The notes under the pieces: generated by a model
Seen by the model: the letters and a program-made list of their open reading frames with translations, nothing else
What the model was told of the DNA's origin: nothing
Database searches by the model: none
Program-made: the position numbers and the translations under genes
Source of the DNA: a virus
Length of the DNA: 55,879 bases
Direction: 5' to 3' (one strand)
IMG/VR virus record: IMGVR_UViG_3300036761_000980
Span: 1-55,879 of that record
Shown here: positions 34,901-52,310 of the stretch, in pieces
Numbering within the stretch: the first letter of the stretch is position 1
Layout of the letters: the number at the start of each line of letters is the position of its first letter

Positions 34901-37900
34901 GGATCTTCGGGCTCATCTGGAACATCAGGTACAAGTGGGTCTTCAGGTTCAGCTGGAACTAGTGGATCGTCTGGATCGTCAGGTGTTGGAACGTCTGGAA
35001 CGTCTGGAACGTCTGGAACGTCTGGAACGTCTGGAATAGATGGATCTTCAGGAACAAGTGGGTCTTCAGGTTCATCTGGAACATCGGGTACAAGTGGGTC
35101 TTCAGGCTCATATGGAACAAGCGGAACTTCAGGATCAAGTGGATCGTCTGGCACAAATGGAACATCGGGTTCTAGTGGATCATCTGGAACATCAGGTTCT
35201 AGCGGATCATCAGGTATAAATGGTTCATCAGGCTCATCGGGAAGTTCTGGCTCAAGTGGGTCTTCAGGATCAAGCGGCTCAAGTGGATCATCAGGATCAA
35301 GTGGATCTTCAGGATCAAGTGGATCTTCAGGATCAAGCGGATCTTCAGGAACCAGTGGATTATCAGGAACATTTGGTACTTCAGGTACTAGTGGTTCATC
35401 TGGGTCATATGGAACGAGCGGGACATCTGGAACTTCAGGAACATCAGGAATTTCGGGGTCTTCAGGAACTTCAGGATCAAAGGGAACTTCAGGAACAAGC
35501 GGAACGTCTGGTACAAGCGGATTACATGGATTATCTGGATCACATGGAACATCTGGTTCAAGTGGTTCTTCAGGAACATCAGGAACATCAGGAATTGATG
35601 GATCAAGTGGGACATCTGGTCCAGGTGGTTCTTCAGGAACATCTGGAATAGATGGATCATATGGAACATCAGGGACATCAGGAGCGTCAGGTTCATCTGG
35701 AGAGTCTGGATCGCATGGAACATCAGGAACATCAGGAGCATCAGGTTCATCTGGAGAATCTGGATCGCATGGAACATCTGGAACATCTGGAACAAGTGGT
35801 ATTTCAGGAGATAAGTATCAAACAACGTCATCTACATGTTTAACTATATCTGGTATAACACAAACACTCACGGTTTTAAGTGGATTATCATATAGCGCTG
35901 GACAATCATTAATTATTGGATTTGACGGGTCAAATTATATGACTGGTACGGTTACATCATATAATCCATCAACAGGAGCAATGGTTGGAAATATTTTATC
36001 TACTGTTGGTTCTGGATTTTATTGCGATTGGGATGTAAACTTAGGAGGGGCTCAAGGCGCTGATGGATCGCATGGAACATCTGGAACTTCTGGTACAAGC
36101 GGATCATCAGGTTCTTCTGGTACAAGCGGATCATCAGGCTCTTCTGGCACAAGTGGATCATCAGGTAGTTCCGGAACATCTGGCACAAGTGGTACATCTG
36201 GAATAGACGGATCATCTGGTACATCAGGATCTAGTGGTTCTTCAGGTTCAAGTGGCGCTGGGGTATCGGGTACAACTGATAATGATTTTTATTATGATAT
36301 TGATACAGATACATTATATGTACCAAATATAACTTTAAATGGTTCGATTATAATTGCAACTAATCTTCCTGTTGGAGATGATAATGGAACTAAAATAGGT
36401 TTAAGTGGTGATACATTTTATGTTGTGACAGGAATTACAACAGGATCATCAGGAACTTCAGGTACATCTGGAGCGTCAGGTTCATCAGGAGAATCTGGAT
36501 CACATGGAACTTCAGGAACTTCAGGAGCATCAGGTTCATCAGGGGAATCTGGGTCGCATGGCACATCTGGAACATCTGGTTCAAGCGGAAGTTCTGGATC
36601 AACAGGTACAAGTGGTTCTAGTGGATCTTCAGGAACGAGTGGTACATCAGGTATATCGGGCACAAGTGGCTCTTCTGGCTCTTCAGGCACAAGTGGAACA
36701 TCCGGATCAAGTGGAAGTTCAGGAACAAGTGGAACTAGTGGTTCATCAGGTAGTTCTGGAACATCTGGCACTTCTGGAACCAGCGGAGCATCAGGAACAA
36801 GTGGTTCTTCTGGATCATCTGGTACTAGTGGATCATCAGGTAGCTCAGGTACAAGCGGATCTTCTGGATCATCAGGCACATCTGGCACTAGCGGATCATC
36901 AGGAAGTTCAGGAACAAGTGGTACATCGGGAACAAGTGGTTCTTCTGGAACATCAGGATCGAGCGGGTCATCTGGAACTTCAGGCACAAGTGGTTCATCT
37001 GGTTCTTATGGTACAAGCGGAACATCTGGTACAAGTGGATCATCAGGATCTTCTGGAACATCTGGAAGTTCGGGATCATCTGGAACATCTGGTACAAGTG
37101 GATCATCAGGTTCTTCTGGCACAAGCGGAGGTTCAGGATCATCTGGGACAAGTGGAACATCTGGAACCAGTGGTTCATCTGGTAGTTCTGGGACAAGTGG
37201 AACATCAGGTTCGTCTGGCAGTTCTGGAACATCTGGTTCATCTGGTAGTTCAGGAACATCAGGTACAAGTGGTTCATCTGGTAGTTCTGGAACAAGCGGT
37301 AGTTCAGGATCTTCTGGCACAAGTGGAACATCTGGTACTAGTGGTTCATCGGGTTCATCTGGAACTAGTGGAACTTCTGGAACATCAGGTATATCGGGCA
37401 CAAGTGGTTCTTCTGGCTCTTCAGGTACAAGCGGGACATCAGGATCAAGTGGAAGTTCAGGTACAAGCGGGACATCAGGATCAAGTGGAAGTTCAGGCAC
37501 AAGTGGGACATCAGGATCAAGTGGAAGTTCAGGCACAAGTGGGACATCAGGAATATCTGGAACAAGCGGTAGTTCAGGATCTTCTGGCACTTCTGGTACG
37601 AGCGGATCTTCTGGTTCATCTGGAACAAGCGGTAGTTCAGGATCTTCTGGTACTTCAGGCACAAGTGGTGGTTCAGGTTCATCTGGAACAAGTGGAACAT
37701 CTGGAACTAGTGGTTCATCAGGTTCATCAGGAACATCAGGCACAAGCGGTTCATCTGGAAGCTCAGGCACAAGCGGAACATCTGGATCAAGTGGATCTTC
37801 AGGAACATCAGGTACAAGCGGTAGTTCAGGTTCGTCTGGTACTTCAGGCACAAGTGGTTCATCAGGTTCATCTGGAACATCGGGTTCGTCTGGTAGTTCT

Positions 37901-39676
37901 GGAACAAGCGGTAGTTCAGGATCTTCTGGTACAAGTGGCGGTTCGGGTTCATCTGGAACATCAGGTACAAGCGGATCATCTGGAACATCTGGTACGAGTG
38001 GCACATCTGGAACATCTGGTACGAGTGGCACATCTGGAAGTTCGGGATCATCTGGAACATCTGGCACAAGTGGATCTAGCGGGTCTTCTGGAACAAGTGG
38101 ATCTTCTGGTACATCTGGAACAAGTGGTTCATCAGGATCAAGTGGCACATCTGGAAGTTCAGGATCATCAGGCACATCTGGAAATTCTGGATCATCTGGC
38201 ACAAGTGGATCTTCTGGTAGTTCTGGAACATCTGGAACAAGTGGGTCTTCTGGGTCATCTGGAACAAGTGGATCGTCTGGAAGCTCAGGAACATCTGGCA
38301 CAAGTGGATCTTCTGGAAGTTCAGGGTCATCTGGCATAAGTGGATCTTCTGGAACTAGTGGGTCAAGTGGATCTTCAGGAACTAGTGGAAATTCTGGATC
38401 ATCAGGAACATCTGGCACTAGTGGATCGTCTGGTACTTCAGGAACATCTGGTACTTCTGGTACAAGCGGATCTAGCGGGTCTTCCGGTACAAGCGGTAGT
38501 TCAGGAACATCTGGAACAAGCGGCACATCTGGATCTAGTGGTTCATCAGGAACAAGCGGATCGTCTGGTAGTTCTGGAACATCTGGCACTTCAGGGACAT
38601 CTGGTATTTCTGGTACAAGCGGATCTAGCGGGTCTTCTGGCACAAGCGGTAGTTCAGGATCATCTGGTACTTCAGGAGTGAGTGGAACATCAGGTTCATC
38701 GGGTAGTTCAGGCACAAGTGGGTCAAGTGGTTCATCTGGAACAAGCGGATCATCTGGTAGTTCTGGAACATCTGGAACAAGCGGTACATCTGGATCTAGT
38801 GGTTCATCTGGAACAAGCGGATCATCTGGTAGTTCTGGAACATCTGGAACAAGCGGCACATCTGGATCTAGTGGTTCATCAGGAACAAGCGGATCATCAG
38901 GTAGTTCCGGAACATCTGGCACAAGTGGTACATCTGGAATAGACGGATCATCTGGTACATCAGGATCTAGTGGTTCTTCAGGTTCAAGTGGTGCGGGTGT
39001 ATCAGGTATAACCGATAGTGATTTTTATTATGACATCGATACAAATACATTATATACTCCTAATATAACATTAAATGGTTCAACTATAATTGCAACTAAT
39101 CTTCCTGTTGGATCCGATAATGGGACTAAAATAAGTTTAAGTGGTGATACATTTTATGTTGTAACAGGAATTACGACTGGTACATCTGGAACATCTGGAA
39201 CTTCAGGAGCATCGGGTTCATCTGGAGAATCTGGATCACATGGAACATCTGGAACTTCAGGTACAAGTGGATCAAGCGGCTCGAGTGGTTATAGTGGTAC
39301 AACATATTCTGGATTTTATTATTTTAATGGATGTTTATACGCTGATTGTGTAATTATAAATGGATCATATAAAATAAATTCAGTAATATTAACAGGTCTT
39401 ACTAGTACAGGATCAACAATTACATTAATATCAAAAACATATTGTAGCGGGGCGTTTTTTGATTATTATGTACAAGATGGGTCTAATATGAGAATAGGTA
39501 CAGTAATGAGTGTTTGGGATGGTACAAATATATCATATACTGATTATTCAACTACGGATATTGGAGATTCATCGCCAGTCTCATTCACTGCTAGTATAGA
39601 TGGATCTAATGTAAAATTAGAAGCAGAGATATCATCTGGAACTTGGACAATAAAACTCGGTATTAGATTAATATAA
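31961..39676 (+). CDS. Giant collagen-like fibre protein (2571 aa)
   Basis: The N-terminal attachment domain is about 147 residues. Four Gly-X-Y segments (about 2100 residues, mainly GTS, GSS and GIDGSS) are broken by small folded modules: DKYQTTSSTCLTISG at about 1281-1362, and two near copies of FYYDIDTDTLYVPNITLN at about 1440-1490 and 2350-2405. A C-terminal head (from about 2445) resembles other fibre tips. Gly at every third position implies a trimeric collagen-like rod. At the textbook rise of 0.286 nm per residue it could approach 0.6 micrometre. It is very poor in Pro and rich in Ser/Thr, so glycans may stabilise it. I infer a long tail or head fibre. Confidence 0.85.
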   Translation: MALQKINWTQIDSAHVPSGLTIDLGSIPTPIDGTYTETLFIGEDGNEEVLHNFFWYLTGCTGNTGASGDRYRTTSTTQLTISGGTQTLIVGTGLSYIPGQSLIIAKDGYNYMEGTVVSYTGSTGEMIGNITSFSGSGTYNSWYVNLGGAQGADGTSGTSGISGTSGSSGSSGTSGSSGSSGTRGTSGSSGSSGTSGSRGTSGSSGSSGTSGTSGSSGTRGTSGTSGSSGSSGTKGTSGTSGSSGSSGSKGTSGSSGSSGTSGLSGTSGSSGSSGTSGLSGTSGSSGSSGISGSNGTSGTSGSSGSSGSSGTSGIDGSSGTSGTSGSSGSSGTSGTSGTSGSSGTSGISGTSGSSGSSGTSGTSGSSGSSGTSGTSGSSGSSGTSGSSGTSGTSGSSGTAGSSGSSGTSGQDGTNFGTSGTSGTSGTSGTSGTSGTSGEQGIIGPPGLAGTSGTSGIDGSSGTSGIDGSSGTSGSSGSSGTSGTSGTTGTSGTSGSSGTAGSSGSSGTSGQDGTNFGTSGTSGTSGIDGSSGSSGTSGSSGSSGTSGEQGVIGPPGLSGSHGTSGSSGSSGTSGIDGSSGTSGIDGSHGTSGTSGIDGSSGTSGSSGSSGVGTSGTSGTSGTSGTSGIDGSSGSSGTSGEQGVIGPPGLSGTSGSSGSSGTSGVDGSSGTSGTDGTSGSSGSSGSSGVGTSGTSGTSGIDGSSGTSGIDGSSGTSGIDGSSGTSGIDGSSGTSGTSGFGSSGTSGSSGVGTSGTSGTSGEPGIIGPPGVPGTSGTSGSSGSYGTSGTSGSSGSSGTSGIDGSSGTSGIEGSSGTSGIDGSSGTSGIDGSSGTSGSSGSSGVGTSGTSGTSGTSGTSGSSGSSGTSGDQGIIGPPGVSGTSGTSGSSGTSGSSGSSGISGSSGTSGTDGTSGSSGSSGTSGSSGSSGVGTSGTSGTSGEQGVIGPPGLSGSHGTSGSSGSSGTSGTSGTSGTSGSSGSSGIDGSSGSSGTSGTSGSSGSAGTSGSSGSSGVGTSGTSGTSGTSGTSGIDGSSGTSGSSGSSGTSGTSGSSGSYGTSGTSGSSGSSGTNGTSGSSGSSGTSGSSGSSGINGSSGSSGSSGSSGSSGSSGSSGSSGSSGSSGSSGSSGSSGSSGTSGLSGTFGTSGTSGSSGSYGTSGTSGTSGTSGISGSSGTSGSKGTSGTSGTSGTSGLHGLSGSHGTSGSSGSSGTSGTSGIDGSSGTSGPGGSSGTSGIDGSYGTSGTSGASGSSGESGSHGTSGTSGASGSSGESGSHGTSGTSGTSGISGDKYQTTSSTCLTISGITQTLTVLSGLSYSAGQSLIIGFDGSNYMTGTVTSYNPSTGAMVGNILSTVGSGFYCDWDVNLGGAQGADGSHGTSGTSGTSGSSGSSGTSGSSGSSGTSGSSGSSGTSGTSGTSGIDGSSGTSGSSGSSGSSGAGVSGTTDNDFYYDIDTDTLYVPNITLNGSIIIATNLPVGDDNGTKIGLSGDTFYVVTGITTGSSGTSGTSGASGSSGESGSHGTSGTSGASGSSGESGSHGTSGTSGSSGSSGSTGTSGSSGSSGTSGTSGISGTSGSSGSSGTSGTSGSSGSSGTSGTSGSSGSSGTSGTSGTSGASGTSGSSGSSGTSGSSGSSGTSGSSGSSGTSGTSGSSGSSGTSGTSGTSGSSGTSGSSGSSGTSGTSGSSGSYGTSGTSGTSGSSGSSGTSGSSGSSGTSGTSGSSGSSGTSGGSGSSGTSGTSGTSGSSGSSGTSGTSGSSGSSGTSGSSGSSGTSGTSGSSGSSGTSGSSGSSGTSGTSGTSGSSGSSGTSGTSGTSGISGTSGSSGSSGTSGTSGSSGSSGTSGTSGSSGSSGTSGTSGSSGSSGTSGTSGISGTSGSSGSSGTSGTSGSSGSSGTSGSSGSSGTSGTSGGSGSSGTSGTSGTSGSSGSSGTSGTSGSSGSSGTSGTSGSSGSSGTSGTSGSSGSSGTSGTSGSSGSSGTSGSSGSSGTSGSSGSSGTSGGSGSSGTSGTSGSSGTSGTSGTSGTSGTSGTSGSSGSSGTSGTSGSSGSSGTSGSSGTSGTSGSSGSSGTSGSSGSSGTSGNSGSSGTSGSSGSSGTSGTSGSSGSSGTSGSSGSSGTSGTSGSSGSSGSSGISGSSGTSGSSGSSGTSGNSGSSGTSGTSGSSGTSGTSGTSGTSGSSGSSGTSGSSGTSGTSGTSGSSGSSGTSGSSGSSGTSGTSGTSGISGTSGSSGSSGTSGSSGSSGTSGVSGTSGSSGSSGTSGSSGSSGTSGSSGSSGTSGTSGTSGSSGSSGTSGSSGSSGTSGTSGTSGSSGSSGTSGSSGSSGTSGTSGTSGIDGSSGTSGSSGSSGSSGAGVSGITDSDFYYDIDTNTLYTPNITLNGSTIIATNLPVGSDNGTKISLSGDTFYVVTGITTGTSGTSGTSGASGSSGESGSHGTSGTSGTSGSSGSSGYSGTTYSGFYYFNGCLYADCVIINGSYKINSVILTGLTSTGSTITLISKTYCSGAFFDYYVQDGSNMRIGTVMSVWDGTNISYTDYSTTDIGDSSPVSFTASIDGSNVKLEAEISSGTWTIKLGIRLI
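32401..35806 (+). repeat. Collagen-like Gly-X-Y tract 1 (about 1135 residues)
   Basis: Nine-base units encode GTS, GSS and related triplets. Six Pro-containing modules (E-Q/P-G-I/V-I-G-PPG) and six G-V-G register breaks occur between about 33270 and 34990. The codons for Ser and Gly vary, so the DNA is less identical than the protein. Confidence 0.9.
36048..36270 (+). repeat. Collagen-like tract 2 (about 74 residues)
   Basis: A short Gly-X-Y run between two folded modules, starting with GAQGADG as tract 1 does. Confidence 0.85.
36439..38999 (+). repeat. Collagen-like tract 3 (about 854 residues)
   Basis: Almost pure GTS/GSS triplets with rare GGS, GNS and GIS. It has neither the Pro modules nor the G-V-G breaks of tract 1. 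All other reading frames are also largely open because of the repeat. Confidence 0.9.
39178..39294 (+). repeat. Collagen-like tract 4 (about 39 residues)
   Basis: Short run (GASGSSGESGSHGTSG) leading into the C-terminal head domain. The same sequence follows the first copy of the YYDIDT module. Confidence 0.85.
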
Positions 39677-39677
39677 A

Positions 39678-42449
39678 ATGGCAAATTACGGAGTAGTTAT
39701 TGATCAAAATGCACCACATCTAGTGGAATTAAAACCTCGAACAGTAGAAGGTGGATATGGATTATTATATAACTGGTATGTAGTAAAAGTGACTCCAGTT
39801 TCTATTGCGCCCGCAGGATGGCATGTGCCAACAATAACAGAACTGCAAACATTATCAACATTTCTGGGTGGAGATGCAATTTCAGGAGGAAAATTAAAAG
39901 AAACGGGTTTGGATCACTGGGATACACCAAATACAGGAGCAGATAATTCCTCAGGATTTACAGCTCTCGGTGCAGGAGCTAGAGATGTTGATGGTACATT
40001 TTGCTGCATTAAAGAGATATTTGGAGTATGGGCATCAACGGAAACAGGAGGTGATGGTGATTGTTTAGCATTACAAAAATATGATGATGCTACTATAATT
40101 ACGACAGTTGCCAAAAAAACTGGTATCTCTATTCGTTTAATTAAAAATAATTCTATCGATCCCGGTACAGTAACAGATATTGATGGTAATGTTTATCCTA
40201 CTGTCAAAATTGGTACTCAGGTATGGATGGCATTAAATTTGAAAGTTACAAAATATAATGATGGGACTTCGATTCCGGAAATTACTGATAATGCTGCATG
40301 GTCAGGAGATACCGCAGGTGCACTATGTGCATATGATAATAACTGGGATTATGTGTGGAATCGTTATCTAATTTATTTATTACCTAACGCTCCCGTGATT
40401 GAAAATCAATCATTTCAGATATACGAAGAACAATCATCTGGAACAACAGTTGGTCATGTTATTTCTACCGATCCAAATAATATTACATACTCAATAACTG
40501 CAGGAAATACTGGAAATGCATTTATAATTAATGCATCAACTGGATATTTAACAACAAATACAGTATTAGATTTTGAAACCCTTAGTGGATATTCATTAAC
40601 AATAGAGGTTGTAAATAATTCATTTCCATCTTTATCAGATACAGCTATTGTTAGTGTTGAAGTATTAAAATTATATCATGTATGCGTCGATAATGGATTA
40701 CATTTCAATGGTTATTCCGAAGATTTAATTGGATTATTAACTGTTGGCGTTGTTCATGCAACAACTGGAACCCTTACAGATTATGTAATAGAATGGCATT
40801 TAAACACTATAAGTGGATCAACTGTATTTATTACTGGCAATAGCGGAAATACGGATCCTTCTATCCAGTCGTTCCACCCAATAAATTCCGAATTAGTTCA
40901 AGCGGGTGAATTATATCCTGTTGTGCGTTATGCTAATGTTAATGGAATATTATATAGTGCTTATTCTAATCTTGGTTATTTATATTCGCCTGATTTATTG
41001 ACTTGTTTACCATCAATTACTGTTGTTTCAATGACTTGTTCAAATGGATCCGCAGGTTTATTTGGACATACTGTTCAATATATAAATACTACGCAACCAA
41101 GTCAACTCGCCAATAGATCATTGACATATGGATTAAATCTTGATAGTTCTTCGAAACAAATAAGTTACCAATTTTATGGATTTGCTATAGCTGACAGAAT
41201 AACTACGTCATATTGTACAACTGGCGGTACGAAAACAGTAATAGATGACTGGGTTGTAGGATTGGATTGCACTGGAAATACGTTTAATTCTTTACCTAAA
41301 TTATACACCAATCAATGGATAAAGAGATCTTTAAGTCTGACTGGATTTACATATCAAAGCGGTGATTATTTATTATTCGATACGTTCCCGTCATATAACG
41401 CTCCTGGAAATACTGATACTAACTGGCGATTAAGTATAAAATGTTTTAGTGGTGATAATTTAATTGATTTTGGATTCCAACCAAATACTGTTAATGATAT
41501 TGATACTGGAGCAACAATGAATTTAGTATGGAATACAGGTAATTGTTCTTATGATTTAACAGTTATAACAGGTGTACCAAGAGTTCCATTATCATATAAT
41601 AGTGATATGTACCATTATACAGAAGCTGGGGCCGGTGGTTCTTACGAGTGGACGACTGGCCAAACTATTTCTGTTCTTCAATATACAGGAAGTTCATTAA
41701 CTTGGGTGCCATATACTGCATATGGTAGTCCTTATTTACTTAATGGTGTATTAAATATAAAATTAACTGGTGGTACTCATAATCTTCTTTATACGTTTAC
41801 AGATGCGATGGATTATAATCATTATAAAACTGGATATACAACAAATATTACAAGTTCTCATTGGACTGATTGGACATCAGATGTAAATAGTTTAAATCAT
41901 TATAAATTTATAAATGATGTATTTAAAGTTTCAATGACAAGTGGTGACACTTTTTATACCTATGGATTATATGTTGATAGCCAATCAGTATTCACATTTG
42001 ATGATGTAAATAAAACAATTTCAATTGCACTTGTTCCTCAAACTGGTGTATATACTGGAGTTGCTTGTGATAAATCATCTGATAATTTTAATTGGATTAT
42101 AACTTATACGAATAATTTATACTCTGGAACAACTTGGGATTTAAATACAATTTGGGGTACTCAAAATCCATTCCCATTTATGTATCTTACTTATTGGCCA
42201 TATGTTTATACGGAAGCAACTATGCAAACATATATGTTTCTTTATAATAACTTATTGGATACAAGCACGCCATTAAGTCCTGAATGGTTCTTATCTTCTG
42301 GAGTTTGGTATTTCTGGAAAGTTTGCCTCAATTTAAAGATTGATAATGTGGTAGATCCATTAAATAATTATAGTGTATATAGTGGATTAAATTCAGATGG
42401 TAGTGTAAGTAGTCCAGTTGTTTGGACATTAATTAAAAGAGTACCGTAA
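39678..42449 (+). CDS. Fibre/adhesin with permuted FISUMP and cadherin-like domains (923 aa)
   Basis: It starts one base after the collagen gene stop codon. Residues about 26-155 contain YGLLYNWYVVK, PAGWHVPTITELQTL, GGKLKETGLDHWDTPNTGA and FTALGAGARDVDGTF, the second half of a FISUMP domain. Residues about 160-225 contain TDIDGNVYPTVKIGTQVWMA and KYNDGTSIPEITDNAAW, the first half. A cadherin-like domain follows at about 236-330 (FQIYEEQSSGTTVGHVISTD). The rest (about 335-923) is beta-rich and unrecognised. FISUMP domains occur on Bacteroidetes cell surfaces, so acquisition from a host is plausible. It is probably a receptor-binding or fibre-tip protein. Confidence 0.75.
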   Translation: MANYGVVIDQNAPHLVELKPRTVEGGYGLLYNWYVVKVTPVSIAPAGWHVPTITELQTLSTFLGGDAISGGKLKETGLDHWDTPNTGADNSSGFTALGAGARDVDGTFCCIKEIFGVWASTETGGDGDCLALQKYDDATIITTVAKKTGISIRLIKNNSIDPGTVTDIDGNVYPTVKIGTQVWMALNLKVTKYNDGTSIPEITDNAAWSGDTAGALCAYDNNWDYVWNRYLIYLLPNAPVIENQSFQIYEEQSSGTTVGHVISTDPNNITYSITAGNTGNAFIINASTGYLTTNTVLDFETLSGYSLTIEVVNNSFPSLSDTAIVSVEVLKLYHVCVDNGLHFNGYSEDLIGLLTVGVVHATTGTLTDYVIEWHLNTISGSTVFITGNSGNTDPSIQSFHPINSELVQAGELYPVVRYANVNGILYSAYSNLGYLYSPDLLTCLPSITVVSMTCSNGSAGLFGHTVQYINTTQPSQLANRSLTYGLNLDSSSKQISYQFYGFAIADRITTSYCTTGGTKTVIDDWVVGLDCTGNTFNSLPKLYTNQWIKRSLSLTGFTYQSGDYLLFDTFPSYNAPGNTDTNWRLSIKCFSGDNLIDFGFQPNTVNDIDTGATMNLVWNTGNCSYDLTVITGVPRVPLSYNSDMYHYTEAGAGGSYEWTTGQTISVLQYTGSSLTWVPYTAYGSPYLLNGVLNIKLTGGTHNLLYTFTDAMDYNHYKTGYTTNITSSHWTDWTSDVNSLNHYKFINDVFKVSMTSGDTFYTYGLYVDSQSVFTFDDVNKTISIALVPQTGVYTGVACDKSSDNFNWIITYTNNLYSGTTWDLNTIWGTQNPFPFMYLTYWPYVYTEATMQTYMFLYNNLLDTSTPLSPEWFLSSGVWYFWKVCLNLKIDNVVDPLNNYSVYSGLNSDGSVSSPVVWTLIKRVP

Positions 42450-42515: not shown

Positions 42516-42533
42516 TATTAGTTATGTTATTAT

Positions 42534-45506
42534 ATGAGTAATGAATTTGTAGCCCGTAATGGTGTAATCATTAAATCAATTGCAACTGGTACAACCGAAA
42601 CTAAGATTTTAGTAGTGGATGATACTGGACTTATGAAATTAAGAACATCAATTTCTTTAGGCGGAACATCTGGAACAAGCGGAACATCTGGAACTTCAGG
42701 TTCAAGTGGTTCATCTGGAACAAGCGGATCGTCTGGTTCATCTGGTACATCTGGCGGTTCTGGTTCTTCAGGTACAAGCGGAACTTCAGGTTCGAGTGGT
42801 TCATCTGGCACAAGCGGATCATCTGGTTCATCTGGCACAAGCGGATCATCTGGTTCATCTGGAACAAGCGGAAGTTCAGGTTCTAGTGGTTCATCTGGAA
42901 CAAGAGGAACATCTGGTAGTTCTGGATCTTCTGGAACTTCTGGAACTAGTGGGACATCTGGTAGTTCTGGATCTTCTGGAACTAGTGGGACATCTGGTAA
43001 TTCTGGATCTTCTGGAACTAGTGGGACGTCTGGTAGTTCTGGATCTTCTGGAACTAGTGGAACATCTGGTAGTTCTGGAACATCACCAACTGGAGGAACT
43101 GGAGGTGATTCACTTTGGTATCTTATACCAGAAACTACTACAATAGCTCCTATAGCTAATGAGTCAATTCAAGTTAAAAATATTACTATTGGAGTAGAAA
43201 GTGATAACATGATTAAAGGTCTGGATTCGGAGACAGGAGGGAATCTTCAAATTTATGGAGGGGATAGTTTAATTGACATAGATGGTAGTAAAGGAGGAGA
43301 TGTTTGGATTGTAGGCGGATCTTCCAGTAATACCACTGGAGAAACAGGAGGAGATGTTTGGATTATAGGTGGATTTTCGCCAAATCCTGATCTATATAAT
43401 AGGTCTAATGTTTTTATAAGTAATGATATAGCGTACCTTCGATTTAAAACTATAGAAAATAATCAGATATGGTTTAGCCCAGGCGGAGAAGGTAGCGGCG
43501 CTGGTCAGAATTTTTATCTTGCAGGGGGAAATAGTGAATCAGATCCCGCAGGCGACATAATAATAAAAGGAGGAGATCAAATAGAAGCAACTACTGGCGG
43601 CCGCGGCGGAAATGTTATTATTTCTGGTGGAACTACTAGCAATGCTGGTGAACTTTATGGTGGAGACATTTATATTATTGGGGGAACGAGAGCAAATTCC
43701 GATATAAATAATAGGTCTAAAGTTTATATTGGTAATGAAAAATGGAGCCTTGAACTTAAAACTATGTATCTACCTGAAGTACTTGGAGATTATGGTGGTG
43801 AAACGATATGGCTTAGCCCAAGAGATCAAGATACGGGTAATACGCTTAATGGATATAGTTTTATACTTCAAGGAGGAAATAATAATAATGATCTAATACC
43901 CGAAATGCTTGATCCTATGGATGCAGGATCTATATTGGTAGTCGGAGGATCTCAAGGAGCAAGTAGTGGAGGTAAAGGTGGAGATGTTATAATTCAAGGC
44001 GGACTCACTACAGCTAGTAGTCCTACTGGAACTTCAGGTGGACATGTTTATATTCAAGGTGGATCTGGTAACACTATTGGAGGACGTGTTTATATTATTG
44101 GAGGCACTACTAATGCTGAAGGGGGATCAGGTTTAGGAGGTGATGTTGTATTTCAGCGTGGATATGGCGTAAGTGTTGGAGGAGAATTTTTATTTGAAAA
44201 TCTACCAGAAGCAACTGAAGGAGATCCTTATGTTGTTTCTTATAATTCATCAAGTGGTAGAATAAGTTATAGAGCAATATCTGGCGTTACTGAATTACTT
44301 TGGTATGAATCAGGTGTAAATTTAATATCTCCTGTAACTGCTTCTAATGGTATTGGTGTTGGTGATGTTCGGATCGGTGGCACTGGCGGAGGTAATCAAA
44401 TTTATGGAATAGAAGGTACTGGCGGTGAACCTGGCGGTAGTTTGATTGTGCATGGAGGAGATGCTTCATCTAGTGGAGCTGGGGGTGGATTCCTTGAGCT
44501 TCGTGCTGGAGATACTTTAATTAATGATCAACTTGATGGTGGATATGTTGAGATTCATGGTGGACATAATAATAATGGTACTGCTGGTACTGGGGGACGT
44601 GTTTATATTACGGGTGGAGGTGTTAGTAGTAGTAATGGATATGGTGGAGATATAATTATTTCACCTGGAATATGTGATAATAATAGTACCCTTAGTATGG
44701 GTGATGTTTTTCTCGGAACTAATCCCAATGATCCCGAAGCCTTTACCATAAAAATAGAGGATTTACCTGATGGACAGGTATTAATAGCATTAGAAGATGA
44801 TTATACACACGATTTTATAATTCGAGGAGCAAACACTTCTGGTAATACTCTAAATGACAATGGAGGTAACTTATATTTACTTGGAGGCGACGAATATACA
44901 ACCAATTCTGGCACTGGAGGTAGAGGTGGTGATGTTTATATTACTGGAGGAACAACAAATAGTCATTTTGCAATAGGTGGAAGTATTAATATTTTTGGTG
45001 GAGATAGTGAAAATGCTATGGGTGGTGATGTTTTTATAGCTGGGGGGCATGGCACTAGTGGTTATGGAAATGTGTATATTGCAAATCCTGTCGATGAAGG
45101 TGGATCATTACCAGTTGATTATGGCACTAATCTTCTTAATGTTTTATATGATGACGAGTCGGGGAAATTATCATATAAACAACCAACCGAACAGGTAGTT
45201 ACTTTTAATACAGGAACAACAACGATTGATTGGACAGTTTCAGAATATGCATATCTCGAACTAACTGATAATGTTTCTCTAATTCTCTTTACTAATCCAA
45301 ATAAAATAGGTGAATATTTCTTAAATATTAAACATATTGGTGACTCTTGGGAAGTAAGTGAATGGGATAGTGACATTTGGTGGCCACAAGGTGTATATCC
45401 CGTATTGTCAGATACCGAAAATGATATTGATCATTTTAGATTTTATTGGAATGGTAGTATTTATCTTGGCCTACTTATGTCTAAGTTTAGATCTATGTTA
45501 ACATAA
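42534..45506 (+). CDS. Collagen-stalked fibre with Gly-rich beta-repeat head (990 aa)
   Basis: A short N-terminal anchor (about 1-42) begins MSNEFVARNGVIIKSIATGT, a form found in fibre-attachment domains. A collagen-like stalk (about 43-183) and then about 650 residues of repeats built on GGDVxIxGG follow, for example GGDVWIVGG, GGNVIISGG and GGRVYIIGG. These probably form a beta-solenoid with one strand per repeat. The C-terminus (TIDWTVSEYAYLELTDNVSL) looks like a tail-fibre tip. The gene shares the collagen vocabulary with the 31961 gene. Confidence 0.75.
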   Translation: MSNEFVARNGVIIKSIATGTTETKILVVDDTGLMKLRTSISLGGTSGTSGTSGTSGSSGSSGTSGSSGSSGTSGGSGSSGTSGTSGSSGSSGTSGSSGSSGTSGSSGSSGTSGSSGSSGSSGTRGTSGSSGSSGTSGTSGTSGSSGSSGTSGTSGNSGSSGTSGTSGSSGSSGTSGTSGSSGTSPTGGTGGDSLWYLIPETTTIAPIANESIQVKNITIGVESDNMIKGLDSETGGNLQIYGGDSLIDIDGSKGGDVWIVGGSSSNTTGETGGDVWIIGGFSPNPDLYNRSNVFISNDIAYLRFKTIENNQIWFSPGGEGSGAGQNFYLAGGNSESDPAGDIIIKGGDQIEATTGGRGGNVIISGGTTSNAGELYGGDIYIIGGTRANSDINNRSKVYIGNEKWSLELKTMYLPEVLGDYGGETIWLSPRDQDTGNTLNGYSFILQGGNNNNDLIPEMLDPMDAGSILVVGGSQGASSGGKGGDVIIQGGLTTASSPTGTSGGHVYIQGGSGNTIGGRVYIIGGTTNAEGGSGLGGDVVFQRGYGVSVGGEFLFENLPEATEGDPYVVSYNSSSGRISYRAISGVTELLWYESGVNLISPVTASNGIGVGDVRIGGTGGGNQIYGIEGTGGEPGGSLIVHGGDASSSGAGGGFLELRAGDTLINDQLDGGYVEIHGGHNNNGTAGTGGRVYITGGGVSSSNGYGGDIIISPGICDNNSTLSMGDVFLGTNPNDPEAFTIKIEDLPDGQVLIALEDDYTHDFIIRGANTSGNTLNDNGGNLYLLGGDEYTTNSGTGGRGGDVYITGGTTNSHFAIGGSINIFGGDSENAMGGDVFIAGGHGTSGYGNVYIANPVDEGGSLPVDYGTNLLNVLYDDESGKLSYKQPTEQVVTFNTGTTTIDWTVSEYAYLELTDNVSLILFTNPNKIGEYFLNIKHIGDSWEVSEWDSDIWWPQGVYPVLSDTENDIDHFRFYWNGSIYLGLLMSKFRSMLT
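42661..43085 (+). repeat. Collagen-like tract (about 141 residues)
   Basis: GTS/GSS triplets with one GTRGTSG, a GGS and a GNS. The second half contains nearly identical 45-base units (GTSGTSGSSGSSGTS), pointing to recent expansion. Confidence 0.9.
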
Positions 45507-45548: not shown

Positions 45549-46778
45549 ATGAAAATATTATTAATTCAAAAATTTTCAATTATAGAGCCTCTTGGTTTAA
45601 TGGTTATTGGAAAAGCAATGATGGATGAGGGACACGATGTTCATTATTATCTTTATCATGGAAAAAGAATACCTCTTTATAATATTGATTTAAGAGATTT
45701 TAATTTGGTGGGATTTAGTACATATACAGGTAATCATATTGAAGTATATGAGGCTTGTAAAGAAGCAAAAAAATATGGTGTAATAACAGTAATTGGAGGC
45801 CCACATGCATCTTTTTTCTATAAAGAATGTAAAGAATATGCTGATTATGTATTCAGAGGTGAAAGTGTATTATCTTTTCCAAATATGGATGATAAAAAAA
45901 TCTATCCATTAGTTAATCCTGATTTGTTAATTCCTGATAGAGAAAATTTTTATTATTATTCGCCGATTCATAGAGATAATCGCATAAAAAATATAATGAC
46001 ATCTTTTGGTTGTCCATTTAGTTGTACATATTGTTATAATTCTCTATACAAAGAACTATATCCTGATGGTAAAGTACGATTAAGAACGGTTGACTCGATT
46101 ATTAAAGAAGCAAATTCATTAGATGCAGAATTAATATATTTCCAAGATGATTTTTTTGGATATAATAAGAAATGGTTAAAAGAATTTAATGAAAAATGGG
46201 GTAAAAGGCCATATCATGCCCAAATGAGAATTGAAACTCTTGATGATGAGAAACTTGATTTATTGATTGATAGTGGGTGCGTTGGTGCCACAATTGCAAT
46301 TGAAACATATGACGAAGAATATAGAGAAAAGGTATTAAAAAGAAAAATGCGAAATGATGTAATTCTTGTAAATTGTAGAAGATTATTGGACGCAGGAATA
46401 AAATTAAGAACAGAACAAATGCTCGGACTTCCAAATACAACATTTGAAGATGAATTAAATTTATTAAAATTAAATTGTCATATTAATCCAACAATTGCGT
46501 GGACAAGTATATTTCAACCATATCGTGGTACAGAATTAGGGGAATATTGCGTTAATAATAATTTATACAACGGAAATAATGAAGATGTTGATGATTCATT
46601 TTTTAAAAATACTGTACTAAATTACCCTAAAGAACGGAAAGAAGAAATAGTAAAATTACAACAAATATTTGCTTTATGCTCGCATATACCAAATGGATGG
46701 GAATATGCCGACCAAATAATAAAACATAATAACGATAATTTAAAAGAACACTTATATTCAATATTGTATAGAACATGA
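45549..46778 (+). CDS. B12-binding-domain radical SAM enzyme (409 aa)
   Basis: The N-terminal Rossmann-like B12-binding domain (about 1-130) has LGLMVIGKAMMDEGHDVHYY and VIGGPHASFF but no canonical D-x-H-x-x-G. The radical SAM core has the cluster motif C155-x3-C159-x2-C162 in CPFSCTYC. Later motifs (ELIYFQDDFFGYN, GVGATIAIETYDEEYREKVL in outline) match class B radical SAM enzymes. Such proteins methylate or rearrange unactivated carbons, often on glycans or natural products. ATGA overlap with the next gene places it in the glycosylation operon. The substrate is unknown. TATATTTA lies four bases before the start. Confidence 0.82.
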   Translation: MKILLIQKFSIIEPLGLMVIGKAMMDEGHDVHYYLYHGKRIPLYNIDLRDFNLVGFSTYTGNHIEVYEACKEAKKYGVITVIGGPHASFFYKECKEYADYVFRGESVLSFPNMDDKKIYPLVNPDLLIPDRENFYYYSPIHRDNRIKNIMTSFGCPFSCTYCYNSLYKELYPDGKVRLRTVDSIIKEANSLDAELIYFQDDFFGYNKKWLKEFNEKWGKRPYHAQMRIETLDDEKLDLLIDSGCVGATIAIETYDEEYREKVLKRKMRNDVILVNCRRLLDAGIKLRTEQMLGLPNTTFEDELNLLKLNCHINPTIAWTSIFQPYRGTELGEYCVNNNLYNGNNEDVDDSFFKNTVLNYPKERKEEIVKLQQIFALCSHIPNGWEYADQIIKHNNDNLKEHLYSILYRT

Positions 46779-49501
46779 AAATATTAGCGCATTGTTCATT
46801 TATAGGCACAACAGGATATGCTAACCACACTAGATCATTTTTTTGTGCATTAAACAAATATCATACTGTTAAAGTACGAAATTTAACTATTGGCAATGGA
46901 TGGAAAGGAATGAACAACACCCCGCACGACGATGAACCATATATTACAAAGGAAATGAAGGATATGTTAATTCTTCAAACTCTTTTCAATAATGATAAGT
47001 CCAGAACGGATTATCCGATGTATGATTATAAGGGTGATTTTAAACCTGATGTACATATCATATTACAAGATATGGATAATTATTATTTTTATGAAAATTA
47101 TGACGGATACAAAATAGGATTTTGTGTTTATGAATCAACAAGATATCCTGATCATTTTTTTCAGCGTTTATCATATTTTGACGAAATGTATGTTCCAACG
47201 CAATGGCAATTTGATTCTCTGGTTGAACAAGGATATCCCATTGAGAAGATTAAAATTGTTACCGAAGGTGTAGATATCGATGTGTTTAAACCTGCAAAAA
47301 AAATTATTAAAAAAGATAAATTTAGATTTTTATTATTTGGTAGATGGGATTATAGAAAATCAACAACTGAAATTATTAAAGCGTTTGGAGAAACATTTAA
47401 AGGTAATAATAATGTAGAACTTGTTTGTTCTGTTGAAAACCCATATCCAAGTGATGAAACACGATCTACCGCCGATAGAATTAAAAAATATAATGTTGAT
47501 TATGATAACATAAAATTTCTTGATTTTGTAAGTAGAAAAGAATATGTTGATTATTTGCAGCAAGGAGATGTTTTTGTTTCATGTGCGAGGAGTGAAGGAT
47601 GGGGATTACCTCTTTGTGAATCAATGAGTTGTGGTACTCCATCAATTTATTCAAATTGGGGAGCACAACTTCAATTTGCCAGAGATAAAGGTATTCCTGT
47701 TAAAATTTCACATATTAGACCCGCAAATATTGGTGATAAAGAAGTTGGCGGCGAATATTGTGAGCCAGATTTTGAAGATCTAGTTGTTCAAATGAAAAAC
47801 GCATATGAGAATTATAATGATTATAAAAAGAAAAGTTTAGAAGAATCAACATTAATACATAATGAATTTAATTGGGATAAAGTTGCAAAAGACGCTTCTA
47901 AAATCTTAGAAAAAAAAACCGATCCGTTTATTTTTGTTACAGCGGGAAATTTAGAATATATGCCGACGATTGAAAAATTAGTGGAATCCCTGAATGAATT
48001 TTCTAAAAATAAGGTTTTAGTATATGGAGTGGATTGTGATGTTCCATTCGAGTCGCCAAATATGATTAAACGAAGAATAAACCCATCTAAACACTCCAAA
48101 TATGATAGATGGTACTGGAAGCAGTATGCGTGTATCGAGTCATTAAATGAGAACTATGATCGTTTTATGTGGATCGATGGGGATGTTGTTGTAAATTATA
48201 ATATCGATACTATTGAGAAATATTTTCCACAAATTGAAAATTATCCATTATCCGATATTCATATACCAGAAGAATTTTCAGGATATTATATAGATGAAAA
48301 TAATAATAATAAAAACCAATTATTTAATGAAAATCTATGTAAATTATGGAATATAAACATTTCAAAGCCATATATGCATATCTGTATGTTTATTTATAAT
48401 AAAAATTGTAAATGGTGGTTTAATGAAATAATCAAGGAATACTTGACAGTTGATTTAAAATTATATGAAACATATTTCCTATGGAACGATGAGAGCATTG
48501 ATAATGGATTAAGGTGGAAATATGGATTTAAAAAACATCTTCCGTTATCTAATTTTGACACATCAGGGTATGATGGCGATGATGGATTTACTAAAGGAGT
48601 AATAAATGATTTTTATAAATTTTGGAACGAACCTGGCCCTCAAAATTTTGATAAAGTTTATGGATATAAATTTATTCCCAAGGATAAAGATCAAATAATT
48701 TATTTTCATGGGAATAAAGATCGTGAAGTTTCAGATAAAATGATTGAATTTATTAAATTTAAAAGAGATAATAATTTCTATCAATCTGAATATTTCTATA
48801 CCGATATTTATAACCTTAAAAATCTTGGAGAAATTAAAGATTTTGAAGGCGGCACAATGGATATTGCAAATAAATGTGGATGGGATTATGCGGTTTATCA
48901 TGAAATATATAATTTAAGGGATTATTACCTCAATCGAGAGAAAAGAATACGCGATGGTGATATTGTTGTTGATTTAGGCGGTAATATCGGTGTATTCACC
49001 AGATGGGCGTATAAAGAGGGGGCGAGTAAGGTAATTACATTTGAGCCCGATAAAAGATATTTTGAATTACTTCAATTAAACTCCGATCCTCGCACTGTAT
49101 TATTTAATGCCGCAATGAGTGATTCAATTGGTACAACCACATTATATGAAAGTGATCATCTTGGAGGATCAAATATTTTAGGGATACTAAATTGTACAAG
49201 AAGTTATAGTGTTAGAACATATACATTAGATTATCTATTTGAAACAGAATTAATTAATAAAATAGATTTTTTAAAAGTTGATATTGAAGGCGCCGAACAT
49301 CAGGTTTTTAAGGGAATATCGGATGAAAATTTAATGAAGATAAAAGCAATAGGAATGGAATATCATAATTGGGGCGGCGTCGATTATACGGAGGAACAAA
49401 GAACAGAGTTTATTAAAAGATTGAATAAATTAGGATTTAATTCACATATTTTATTTCTGGGATCAAATAATGTGCTACAAATGTTATATTTTTGGAGATG
49501 A
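46775..49501 (+). CDS. Three-domain fusion: GT4 glycosyltransferase, GT-A glycosyltransferase, FkbM methyltransferase (908 aa)
   Basis: Residues about 1-375 form a GT-B enzyme of GT4 type, with FLLFGRWDYRKSTTEIIKAF near 190 and the nucleotide-sugar motif EGWGLPLCESMSCGTPSIYS near 274. Residues about 383-640 are a GT-A-like domain with FVTAGNLEYMPTIEKLV and the D-x-D of MWIDGDVVV near 465. Residues about 725-908 are an FkbM methyltransferase, with VVDLGGNIGVFTRW, ITFEPDKRYFELLQLN and FLKVDIEGAEHQVFKG. The fusion implies sequential sugar addition and O-methylation on one substrate. I infer the Ser/Thr-rich fibre proteins encoded upstream. Confidence 0.82.
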   Translation: MKILAHCSFIGTTGYANHTRSFFCALNKYHTVKVRNLTIGNGWKGMNNTPHDDEPYITKEMKDMLILQTLFNNDKSRTDYPMYDYKGDFKPDVHIILQDMDNYYFYENYDGYKIGFCVYESTRYPDHFFQRLSYFDEMYVPTQWQFDSLVEQGYPIEKIKIVTEGVDIDVFKPAKKIIKKDKFRFLLFGRWDYRKSTTEIIKAFGETFKGNNNVELVCSVENPYPSDETRSTADRIKKYNVDYDNIKFLDFVSRKEYVDYLQQGDVFVSCARSEGWGLPLCESMSCGTPSIYSNWGAQLQFARDKGIPVKISHIRPANIGDKEVGGEYCEPDFEDLVVQMKNAYENYNDYKKKSLEESTLIHNEFNWDKVAKDASKILEKKTDPFIFVTAGNLEYMPTIEKLVESLNEFSKNKVLVYGVDCDVPFESPNMIKRRINPSKHSKYDRWYWKQYACIESLNENYDRFMWIDGDVVVNYNIDTIEKYFPQIENYPLSDIHIPEEFSGYYIDENNNNKNQLFNENLCKLWNINISKPYMHICMFIYNKNCKWWFNEIIKEYLTVDLKLYETYFLWNDESIDNGLRWKYGFKKHLPLSNFDTSGYDGDDGFTKGVINDFYKFWNEPGPQNFDKVYGYKFIPKDKDQIIYFHGNKDREVSDKMIEFIKFKRDNNFYQSEYFYTDIYNLKNLGEIKDFEGGTMDIANKCGWDYAVYHEIYNLRDYYLNREKRIRDGDIVVDLGGNIGVFTRWAYKEGASKVITFEPDKRYFELLQLNSDPRTVLFNAAMSDSIGTTTLYESDHLGGSNILGILNCTRSYSVRTYTLDYLFETELINKIDFLKVDIEGAEHQVFKGISDENLMKIKAIGMEYHNWGGVDYTEEQRTEFIKRLNKLGFNSHILFLGSNNVLQMLYFWR

Positions 49502-50160
49502 GTACACTGGATATAATAGCAAATTCATATGGAACAGATAAATCTTCCTATATGCACAATTATTGTGTTAAATATGAAAAATATTTACCATTTAATAGAT
49601 ATGATAATTTAAAAATATTAGAAATTGGAGTATTCCGAGGAGAATCATTAAGAACATGGAAAGATTATTTTTATCGTTCACAAATTATCGGTATTGACAT
49701 ATTACCCGAATGTAAGAACTACAAAGAAGATAGAATTAATATTGAAATTGGATCACAAATAGATGGTAATTTTTTAACTGAAGTTTCAAAAAAACACGGG
49801 CCATTTGATATGATATTAGATGATGGATCACATATGAATTCACATGTAATATACTCATTTGAACATTTATTTCCATCAATTACAACTGGCGGAGTTTATA
49901 TTATTGAAGATTGTACCACATCATATTGGAGTGATTTTGAAGGAGGATATTTGAAAGAAGGAACATCAATGGAATATTTTAAAAAATTAACCGATGATAT
50001 AAATTTTAGAGGATTACAATATGATGTAAACGGAAAGTTTCATCGGTACAGAAAAGAATTGGATCTTATTCCACTTTCACAAGAGCAACAACCATCCTGT
50101 AGAGTAGACATAGAATCAATAATTTTTTTAAACGGAATAATCATAATAACAAAACGATAA
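49498..50160 (+). CDS. Class I SAM methyltransferase, MycE-like sugar O-methyltransferase (220 aa)
   Basis: ATG at 49498 overlaps the previous stop (ATGA); a TTG at 49492 is less likely. The sequence has LDIIANSYGTDKSSYMHNY, ILEIGVFRGESLRTWKDYF (SAM site, about 42-60), IIGIDILPECKNY and FDMILDDGSHMNSHVIYSF. This is the layout of MycE/macrocin-type enzymes that methylate sugar hydroxyls using metal-bound Asp residues. Together with the FkbM domain it gives two methyltransferases for the glycan. Confidence 0.78.
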   Translation: MSTLDIIANSYGTDKSSYMHNYCVKYEKYLPFNRYDNLKILEIGVFRGESLRTWKDYFYRSQIIGIDILPECKNYKEDRINIEIGSQIDGNFLTEVSKKHGPFDMILDDGSHMNSHVIYSFEHLFPSITTGGVYIIEDCTTSYWSDFEGGYLKEGTSMEYFKKLTDDINFRGLQYDVNGKFHRYRKELDLIPLSQEQQPSCRVDIESIIFLNGIIIITKR

Positions 50161-52310
50161 TGTCACAATTCAACGAAGATATTTTTGTAATCGATTCTTG
50201 GCCAAATAATGAGTCAAGAGAAAATGAGTTAATCACCTTAATAGAGAGATTAAGAATATATGATATACCTATTTTATTAGCTGGCCACTACCCAATTAAA
50301 CCTGAAATACAGAAAATGGTAGATTATTGCCTTTATGATAGAAACAATCCATTGTTAATTACTGATGAATTTGCGGATTTTGGCGTTAATAGTGTCAGGT
50401 GGTCAGATACGAAGGATTTTCGTATTGAAAATCTTCGTGAATATCATCATGATTATGCGGTATGGCAAACAATGAAAAATGCTTTTAATTTTTCTAAATA
50501 TCTTGGTAAAAAATATATTCATTTTATAGACGATGATAATTTACCGCATCCTATACAGTATCGCCAGACATTTTTAGAAAGAATTAGAGATTTCGATGTG
50601 GTTATTACTGAGTACGATGAAGGTTCGTCATTAATAACAAATGAAAAACCTTATTGTACAACATATATCTTTTCAATTAGAACAGATATCGCGGTGAAGG
50701 TATTTGACACAATAAAAACTAAAGATGAATTCTTTCGTAATAAGCCAGATAGATGGCAATTAGAGAAAAATTTTTTAAATTCGGCTCGAAAAATTACTAA
50801 TAGTATCTATGTTTGTAAATACATTCCCAATAATAATGAATTAAACAGACACGCAGTATGGGAAAGGCCAGGAATGGACAGAAATAGAATGGATATTCAA
50901 CTTTACTTAGCAGTTAACGATATTGATGATTTATATTTACATACTATTTCAGGCGGCGATTACTTAATAGAAGTGTCCTATGGAAATTATAAAAAATTTC
51001 ATAATGTAACGAAGAATAGTATGCTTGTTTATGAGTTAGGTAAATATCAGCAAGGGAATACAATATTTGTATATTATCAGGGCACGGAAATATATAATAA
51101 TCATTTAGATTATGATATTAATAAATTTCGAGGATTAAATAAAATAATAAGAAAAACGGAAACGCCAAAAGAAATGAATAACACACCCCCAGAAATAAAA
51201 ATAAATTTTCTTGACGGAGCATTTGTCGAAATTAAAGAACAGATGAACAGAATATATCGTGTTCAGTTTATTAATAAAAGAAATAATCAAATTGATTTCG
51301 AATTAGATTTAAAAAGTAATCATTGGGCCAGATGTAGTAAAAAATATTATATCAATTGGTTGATAAGAATACAAGGTATCGATAATGATTTTTATTCTGA
51401 GTATGAAATAAATTTAACAAATAAAAGAGTACTAATTAGTTTTGAATCCAAGTCAATAGGTGATACATTAGCATGGATTCCATATGTTGAAAAATTTAGA
51501 GTTGATCATAAATGTATTGTTATTTGTTCAACATTTCATAATAATTTATTTAAAAATCAATATCCTGAAATTGAATTTGTCGAACCAGGAACAACTGTGC
51601 ATAATGTATATGGACTCTATAGATTAGGAGTCTTTAAAAAAACTGGGTATAAACCAGATCCAAACTCACCTAATGAAGTTGATTATGAAAAACATTTAAC
51701 TGATCCAAAGAAAGAACCATTAACTAAAGTGGCATCAGATATATTGGGTTTAGATTATGTGGAAATCAAACCTAAATTACCTGTATTTACACAAGGAAAG
51801 AAAAAAATAGTTTCTATAGGCACCATCTCGACGGCGCAATGCAAATTCTGGAATAATCCCAATGGATGGCAAGAAGTTGTTAATTTTCTTATTGTAAATG
51901 GATATGAAGTTAAATTACTTTCTAGCGAGCCAGATGGATATATGGGCAATACGAATCCTAAAAATGTAACAAAAATACAAAATAAAAAACTTGAAGAAAT
52001 TTTAAAAATAATCCAAGAATCTGAATTGTTTATTGGTATTAGTAGCGGATTATCATGGTTGGCTTGGGGAACGGGAACTTCCACAATAATTATTTCAGGA
52101 TTTACTGATGATTATGTTGAACCACAAGAAGGTATAATAAGGATAATAAATAAAGAAGTTTGTCATGGATGCTGGGGAAAATATAATTTTGATCCCAGCG
52201 ATTGGCGATGGTGTCCAGTTCATAAAGGAACTGATAGGGAATTTGAATGTACTAAAGAAATTTCATCTAAATCTGTAATTTATGAGATAAAATTAATTCT
52301 AAAGTTATGA
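50160..52310 (+). CDS. GT-A domain fused to TibC/Aah-like O-heptosyltransferase (716 aa)
   Basis: The N-terminal domain (about 1-300) is a GT-A glycosyltransferase with the acidic motif HFIDDDNLP near 124. The C-terminal domain (about 370-716) begins before RVLISFESKSIGDTLAWIPY and contains SIGTISTAQCKFWNNPNGWQ, ISSGLSWLAWGTGTSTIIIS and four Cys (668, 671, 685, 697) in EVCHGCW, WRWCPVHKGT and FECTK. This four-Cys pattern is the iron finger of autotransporter O-heptosyltransferases (TibC/Aah), which glycosylate many Ser residues on repetitive adhesins. That makes the repetitive Ser/Thr fibres the most likely acceptors. The gene starts on the last base of the previous stop codon. Confidence 0.8.
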   Translation: MSQFNEDIFVIDSWPNNESRENELITLIERLRIYDIPILLAGHYPIKPEIQKMVDYCLYDRNNPLLITDEFADFGVNSVRWSDTKDFRIENLREYHHDYAVWQTMKNAFNFSKYLGKKYIHFIDDDNLPHPIQYRQTFLERIRDFDVVITEYDEGSSLITNEKPYCTTYIFSIRTDIAVKVFDTIKTKDEFFRNKPDRWQLEKNFLNSARKITNSIYVCKYIPNNNELNRHAVWERPGMDRNRMDIQLYLAVNDIDDLYLHTISGGDYLIEVSYGNYKKFHNVTKNSMLVYELGKYQQGNTIFVYYQGTEIYNNHLDYDINKFRGLNKIIRKTETPKEMNNTPPEIKINFLDGAFVEIKEQMNRIYRVQFINKRNNQIDFELDLKSNHWARCSKKYYINWLIRIQGIDNDFYSEYEINLTNKRVLISFESKSIGDTLAWIPYVEKFRVDHKCIVICSTFHNNLFKNQYPEIEFVEPGTTVHNVYGLYRLGVFKKTGYKPDPNSPNEVDYEKHLTDPKKEPLTKVASDILGLDYVEIKPKLPVFTQGKKKIVSIGTISTAQCKFWNNPNGWQEVVNFLIVNGYEVKLLSSEPDGYMGNTNPKNVTKIQNKKLEEILKIIQESELFIGISSGLSWLAWGTGTSTIIISGFTDDYVEPQEGIIRIINKEVCHGCWGKYNFDPSDWRWCPVHKGTDREFECTKEISSKSVIYEIKLILKL

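Follow-up and report, generated by a model that had tools for sequence, protein, structure and literature searches.

We analysed a 55,879-base IMG/VR virus record (IMGVR_UViG_3300036761_000980) over its whole length, here called the window, to which coordinates refer. Three genes at 31961-45506, two of them with collagen-like tracts of Gly-Thr-Ser or Gly-Ser-Ser (GTS/GSS) triplets, are followed by four plus-strand open reading frames (ORFs) at 45549-52310, each overlapping the next. We propose, at a probability of roughly 0.74, that these four genes form a cassette that O-glycosylates the phage's own fibres, with heptose added first and the glycan then extended and methylated. Behind this proposal stand the domains of the four genes, an intact active site in the BAHT (TibC-type) protein O-heptosyltransferase domain of gene 4, the linkage and co-occurrence of BAHT with Ser/Thr collagen, and the recurrence of GT4, methyltransferase and BAHT in the virion modules of other phages. 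A reading made earlier from the letters of the window (the sequence-only reading) had suggested that the phage decorates its own fibres with a methylated sugar chain, and this suggestion is supported by an enzyme family that acts on protein serines and by the co-occurrence with collagen in diverse phages. The features concerned are as follows.

50160..52310, plus strand: gene 4, N-terminal GT-A-fold domain and C-terminal BAHT (TibC-type) protein O-heptosyltransferase
51180..52295, plus strand: BAHT domain, residues 341-712 of gene 4 (TIGR04414, 263 bits, cut-off 200)
51462..51464, plus strand: codon of Asp435, equivalent of the TibC catalytic base Asp110, invariant in the viral BAHT alignment
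52161..52250, plus strand: iron-finger Cys668, 671, 685 and 697 (TibC Cys339/342/358/370), motif WCPxHKxTDRxFECT
31961..39676, plus strand: fibre gene 1 (2571 aa), with tracts that total about 690 Gly-X-Y triplets within 32402-39304 (Pfam Collagen, E = 3.5e-262)
39678..42449, plus strand: fibre/adhesin gene 2, 923 aa, FISUMP and cadherin domains
42534..45506, plus strand: fibre gene 3 (990 aa), a collagen tract of 47 GTS/GSS triplets at 42663-43085 followed by about 19 GGxVxIxGG repeats
45549..46778, plus strand: gene 1, radical SAM enzyme with a B12-binding domain and the CxxxCxxC motif (residues 155-162)
46775..49501, plus strand: gene 2, fusion of GT4 (residues about 1-385), a middle domain with a WIDGD motif (about 386-690) and FkbM (about 733-865)
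49492..50160 (probable start 49498), plus strand: gene 3, MycE/MycF-type sugar O-methyltransferase, 220-222 aa

A TibC-type enzyme and the fibres beside it

The enzymes TibC and AAH attach heptose to serines of proteins (PMC4358343). Judged by its sequence, the C-terminal half of gene 4 belongs to the same BAHT family with its active-site residues intact. The sequence-only reading had called it TibC-like, and the label proved to understate the match, which lies well over the curated cut-off of TIGR04414, the NCBIfam equivalog model for autotransporter O-heptosyltransferases. Residues 335-706 also match the PDB sequence of TibC (E = 3.7e-51). TibC requires Asp110, Lys230, Trp305 and four iron-binding Cys (PMC4358343); in gene 4, Asp110, the sugar-binding Thr226, Lys230 and Trp305 correspond to Asp435, Thr558, Lys562 and Trp633. 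The equivalents of Asp110, Lys230, Trp305 and the four Cys were invariant in 101/101 rows of a viral alignment in which the window counted twice and in which two of the Cys, but none of the other residues, belonged to the search motif. Among BAHTs from GTS-collagen contigs, which were chosen without that motif, the Asp/Lys/Trp set was present in 19/19 and the four Cys in 18/19. For the N-terminal beta-barrel and the beta-hairpin thumb with its hydrophobic tip, the resemblance to TibC is equivocal: the barrel region aligns but the Pfam barrel model matches weakly (E = 0.011), and Tyr594-Met595 aligns with the TibC tip Phe265-Val266.

The N-terminal half of gene 4 is predicted to adopt a GT-A fold (mean predicted local distance difference test, pLDDT, 67; PDB E = 8e-6; template-modelling (TM) score about 0.35). 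Its closest viral model, from an uncultured phage (E = 5e-35), is named 'Glycosyltransferase Aah/TibC', so automatic annotation already touches the family. The top GT-A fold matches of this half are the collagen glycosyltransferases LH3 and COLGALT1; we do not deduce collagen specificity from this, as TM scores of 0.34-0.38 permit the statement 'GT-A fold' only.

Upstream of the operon, fibre gene 1 offers a very dense array of hydroxyls. Ser occupies Y in 601/687 triplets (87%) and Thr or Ser occupies X in 601/687 (about 87%), with 1% proline, and the collagen tracts hold 886 Ser and 312 Thr. Because these serines are encoded by both TCN and AGY codons, the repeat pattern is constrained at the protein level. 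In the closest relative, contig L004, the fibre before the operon (L004 927-8618) has 2563 aa and TPSLSISATP repeats, together with laminin-G and beta-helix domains; the fibre has been swapped and its Ser/Thr richness kept, which we count in favour of fibre glycosylation. The earlier claim of three Ser/Thr-repeat fibre genes stands for 31961-39676 and 42534-45506, and fails for 39678-42449, where no GTS/GSS repeat was found. Long shadow ORFs over fibre gene 1, such as 37006-38922 (minus) and 36504-38339 (plus), arise from the GTS/GSS codon repeats, and fibres of this kind will probably be wrongly annotated by gene callers.

The remaining operon genes carry most of the domains expected by the sequence-only reading. 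Gene 1 scores 65 bits for radical SAM and 51 bits for the B12-binding domain; its nearest described relatives are AprD4 and HpnJ, the nearest in PDB being the apramycin-pathway enzyme AprD4, and it falls below every NCBIfam equivalog cut-off. This gene is 82% identical in L004 and was seen only in the present phage and its close kin, and it therefore lies outside the general cassette described below. Gene 2 scores 60 bits for GT4 and 64 bits for the FkbM methyltransferase, and residues 7-180 of gene 3 match solved MycE (3ssm) at E = 2.6e-33 with the DDGSH and IED motifs in common, which bears out the two methyltransferases. The count of four glycosyltransferase domains held in part: GT4 and BAHT are certain and the gene 4 N-terminus is assigned by predicted fold, whereas the gene 2 middle domain was not confirmed. 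It had no Pfam match, and its structure model, built from two sequences, reached a pLDDT of 37, so we make no glycosyltransferase claim for it.

The four ORFs meet at ATGA (46775), ATGA (49498, given an ATG start there) and TAATG (50160), and from these overlapping start/stop junctions the genes are probably translationally coupled, in line with the earlier description of four coupled genes. For gene 3, the ATG at 49498 is a more likely start than 49492, as it gives the ATGA overlap with the preceding stop. The operon block recurs at 99.5-99.9% identity in L002 and L003 and at about 80% DNA identity in L004, and is therefore no assembly accident. With dN/dS against L004 of 0.12, 0.15, 0.34 and 0.20 for genes 1-4, the operon is under purifying selection and hence not a chance arrangement. 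A promoter scan gave chance-level results, and a terminator was likewise not found. Named phages gave no megablast match to bases 1-25000 of the window. Elsewhere in the window, weak NUMOD3 and GIY-YIG matches at 52497-53291 and 54397-55080 suggest that homing-endonuclease-like genes flank the operon on its 3' side (the L004 counterpart of 52497-53291 is longer by 54 aa), and a 1379-aa protein with right-handed beta-helix domains at 265-4404 is possibly a further fibre or tailspike.

BAHT and Ser/Thr collagen across phages

The sequence-only reading had proposed examining the co-occurrence of the operon with GTS-collagen genes, and for BAHT this association was strong. We picked GTS/GSS-collagen contigs of at least 60 kb by collagen pattern alone, among the matches listed, together with controls of similar size picked by a GPx pattern (n=13) or an arbitrary 17-mer (n=18). 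BAHT (TIGR04414) was present in 18/22 GTS-collagen contigs (17 over the cut-off) compared with 3/31 controls (p = 1e-7). The controls split into 3/18 arbitrary 17-mer contigs and 0/13 GP-pattern contigs, the GP-pattern control including GC-rich chance matches, with real proline-rich collagen in 58/119 loci. BAHT copies from the GTS contigs number 19 and form 18 clusters at 70% identity, and near-identical phages therefore do not explain the association. In the reverse direction, a strict G[ST][ST] collagen was found in 13/25 large BAHT contigs and in 0/31 controls.

The same link was seen locally. A search of IMG/VR with a degenerate DNA pattern for WCPxHKxTDRxFECT gave at least 120 loci, and Ser/Thr collagen was present in 19/120 BAHT loci versus 0/120 arbitrary viral loci (p = 2e-6), with collagen-BAHT gaps of 13-170 bp in nine loci. 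On the short loci of about 9 kb alone, the link from GTS collagen to BAHT was modest (10/120 vs 0/119), because the two genes often lie farther apart, as seen on whole contigs.

The enzymes themselves are diverse. Alignable BAHT domains fall into 30 clusters at 70% identity, or 48 with those of the GTS contigs added; all nine other phage lineages tested exceeded the TIGR04414 cut-off (266-338 bits), and three BAHT lineages tested had no PHROG match. The cassette recurs as GT4, an FkbM or MycE-type methyltransferase and BAHT in variable fusion order, and it adjoins tail sheath, tube, baseplate hub, terminase or portal genes. Even on short stretches, a structural gene could be recognised in 51/120 BAHT loci, coding for sheath, tube, hub, terminase, portal or head closure. 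In a large T4-like lineage (L365-L444; over 600 matches), whose terminase is about 56% identical to its closest match, that of Flavobacterium phage immuto, BAHT lies upstream of the terminase in 27/27 loci with at least 5 kb upstream, and appears to be a fixed terminase neighbour.

In three lineages (L054; L043/L097; L012 and kin), the two small genes after BAHT best match, below cut-off, the kinase and adenylyltransferase domains of HldE. These split HldE-like heptose-phosphate adenylyltransferase and kinase genes lie directly 3' of BAHT:

L054 5594-7088
L043 2626-3775
L012 5717-6863

L054 also carries a cupin gene there, and the GTS-collagen loci L203 and L168 have an HldE-like kinase nearby, with no BAHT within the stretch examined. 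In a quick tree, 31 phage rows (of 40 representatives) and 10 bacterial or metagenome-assembled genome (MAG) rows form one group with support 97, apart from the autotransporter-type set; most proteobacterial BAHTs are placed elsewhere. Some of these 'bacterial' rows are phage contigs binned into MAGs (L454 differs hardly at all from L078, and genes for sheath, tube and hub are present in L459), and others, from Methylococcaceae, look chromosomal.

Among 50,697 named phage records, BAHT was found only in Microcystis phage Mel-JY01 and three huge uncultured phage records. In Mel-JY01, whose host is named, GT4, a domain like the gene 4 N-terminus, a MycE-type methyltransferase and BAHT are fused in a single protein, and one structural protein separates this fusion from an unannotated GTS-collagen fibre that runs in frame across the arbitrary record start (754 plus about 1016 residues):

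L005 (PP395634.1) 2-3052 and L648 7739-10000: Mel-JY01 GTS-collagen fibre

A deposited coding sequence, 739-2298 on the minus strand, overlies this fibre. Mel-JY01 is sequenced and its host is known by name, and since BAHT and GTS collagen are paired in it, the proposal is directly testable.

A proposed model of fibre glycosylation and its alternatives

We infer the acceptor, the first sugar, the order of steps and the benefit as follows. The four genes would act during assembly as a fibre-glycosylation cassette, in which the BAHT half of gene 4 would move heptose onto serine hydroxyls of the phage's own fibres. The donor would probably be ADP-heptose, supplied by the host or, in some relatives, by the phage HldE-like enzymes. 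The likeliest acceptors would be the Y-position (and X-position) serines of solvent-exposed Gly-Thr/Ser-Ser collagen triplets. GT4, the GT-A-like domain and possibly the gene 2 middle domain would lengthen the sugar to a short oligosaccharide, which the FkbM and MycE-like enzymes would O-methylate and the radical SAM enzyme would probably alter further. Sugars on Y-position residues stabilise the triple helix in some animal collagens, and by analogy stabilising a proline-poor triple helix would be a reasonable benefit. Mimicry of host glycans and shielding of the virion, which the sequence-only reading had also put forward, would be other candidate purposes.

Phage-borne glycosyltransferases are usually assigned by default to DNA or lipopolysaccharide. 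Under the usual reading the cassette would remodel the host surface, whether its lipopolysaccharide, its exopolysaccharide or one of its surface proteins, and so prevent superinfection or alter receptors. GT4 and FkbM are common in lipopolysaccharide and exopolysaccharide clusters, glycosyltransferases often adjoin fibres in host-range islands, and papers on pelagimyophages (PMC7029224) and actinophages (PMC10202952) assign neighbouring glycosyltransferases to lipopolysaccharide, cell wall or DNA. We nevertheless consider this unlikely: the priming enzyme falls over an equivalog cut-off in a protein-specific family, its association with Ser/Thr-rich collagen is strong and no GP-pattern contig (0/13) carries it, and in one lineage it keeps a constant place upstream of the terminase (27/27), which would not be expected of a variable island for host modification. 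Modification of DNA to hypermodified bases, a known role of phage glycosyltransferases that a DNA methyltransferase-like gene at 53579-54223 might recall, is very improbable, as proteins are what BAHTs modify (PMC4358343), a scan of window proteins recognised none for the synthesis of modified bases, and the cassette is located with fibre, tail or packaging genes. The sequence-only reading had itself named lipopolysaccharide and DNA as targets that would refute it, and both fit poorly with BAHT inside virion-structural modules.

A different acceptor within the virion has also to be weighed. Known BAHT acceptors are beta-helical repeats (PMC4358343), and BAHT could target fibre regions other than collagen, such as the GGxVxIxGG repeats of fibre 3, which are beta-solenoid-like, with the collagen association reflecting shared ancestry of large aquatic phages; some BAHT phages do lack GSS/GTS collagen. 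Yet fibre 3 has no match to a known acceptor repeat, collagen lies directly beside BAHT in several unrelated lineages and in differing orientations, and the BAHT copies of GTS contigs are very diverse, so that we regard this reading as quite unlikely. Several points do weigh against glycosylation of the collagen fibres as proposed. No autotransporter strand-loop-strand acceptor repeat was found in the window fibres, fibre 3 included, at E <= 0.05. Strict GSS/GTS collagen is missing from 12/25 large BAHT contigs, and such a tract is therefore not the sole acceptor. Gene neighbourhood and common lineage or habitat could make the phylogenetically uncorrected co-occurrence look stronger than it is. 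The TibC adenine contact Arg286, described as highly conserved (PMC4358343), is Ile614 in the window and V/R/T/I/L across viral BAHTs; the donor may therefore not be ADP-heptose, BAHT family membership being unaffected, and heptose is likely but not assured as the first sugar. Finally, the virion fibre glycan is a prediction, with the acceptor read from sequence and gene context.

Overall, a protein-specific enzyme, an adjoining serine-packed fibre, recurrence across phages, enzymes for extension and methylation and occasional donor synthesis make fibre self-glycosylation the best explanation. The pairing of BAHT and fibre in many unrelated phages points to a widespread, so far undescribed sugar-coating of fibres. 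We give about even odds to a broader claim, that a broad range of large uncultured tailed phages hyperglycosylate their own Gly-Ser/Thr-Ser collagen fibres, which are poor in proline, by means of an O-linked and methylated oligosaccharide primed by phage BAHTs, some with their own ADP-heptose synthesis genes, and that this bacterial-style glycosylation of collagen stabilises and shields giant fibres. Fibre self-glycosylation would offer a reason why collagen tracts nearly devoid of proline can be tolerated, and would predict sugar-coated fibres in common aquatic phages. With a protein-specific O-heptosyltransferase family present in dozens of divergent phage clusters and linked to a single fibre type, a large class of phage-borne glycosyltransferases acquires a concrete, testable target.

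Comparison with known glycosylation systems

No description of phage BAHTs was found in the literature searched, which left out subscription papers and preprints. To our knowledge, no BAHT system outside autotransporters was known before. Virion glycosylation has been described for mycobacteriophages Che8 and Rita (Freeman et al. 2023, as cited in PMC11256854 and PMC12619734), where glycosyltransferases encoded by the phage are likewise proposed to act on structural proteins of the phage itself. There it is the capsid and tail tube of actinophages that are modified, with no collagen-like fibre reported as a target, and we found BAHT in no mycobacteriophage record of the named-phage collection. 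As summarised in a review (PMC9614988), Mimivirus L230 is a collagen lysyl hydroxylase/glucosyltransferase, a viral enzyme that adds sugar to collagen-like proteins of the virus itself, as shown on peptides. L230 differs in belonging to a eukaryotic virus and in making hydroxylysine-linked glucose, whereas the window fibres offer Ser (or Thr) hydroxyls directly.

Anthrose is an O-methylated sugar. Oligosaccharides ending in it decorate the collagen-like region of BclA in the Bacillus exosporium, as cited in PMC9614988; this collagen-like hair with oligosaccharide side chains is at most an analogy and not a relative, being part of a bacterial spore coat made with other enzymes and sugars. The closest known system is that of the autotransporter O-heptosyltransferases TibC, from enterotoxigenic Escherichia coli, and AAH (TIGR04414; PDB 4RAP). 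The phage BAHT differs from these in its fusion to a GT-A-like domain, its clustering with GT4 and methyltransferases, its Arg286 to Ile change and its neighbour, which is a collagen-like fibre and not an autotransporter. It resembles them in a full-length domain match, the conserved Asp/Lys/Trp and 1Fe iron-finger Cys, and in its place beside a large, repetitive, Ser-containing surface protein.

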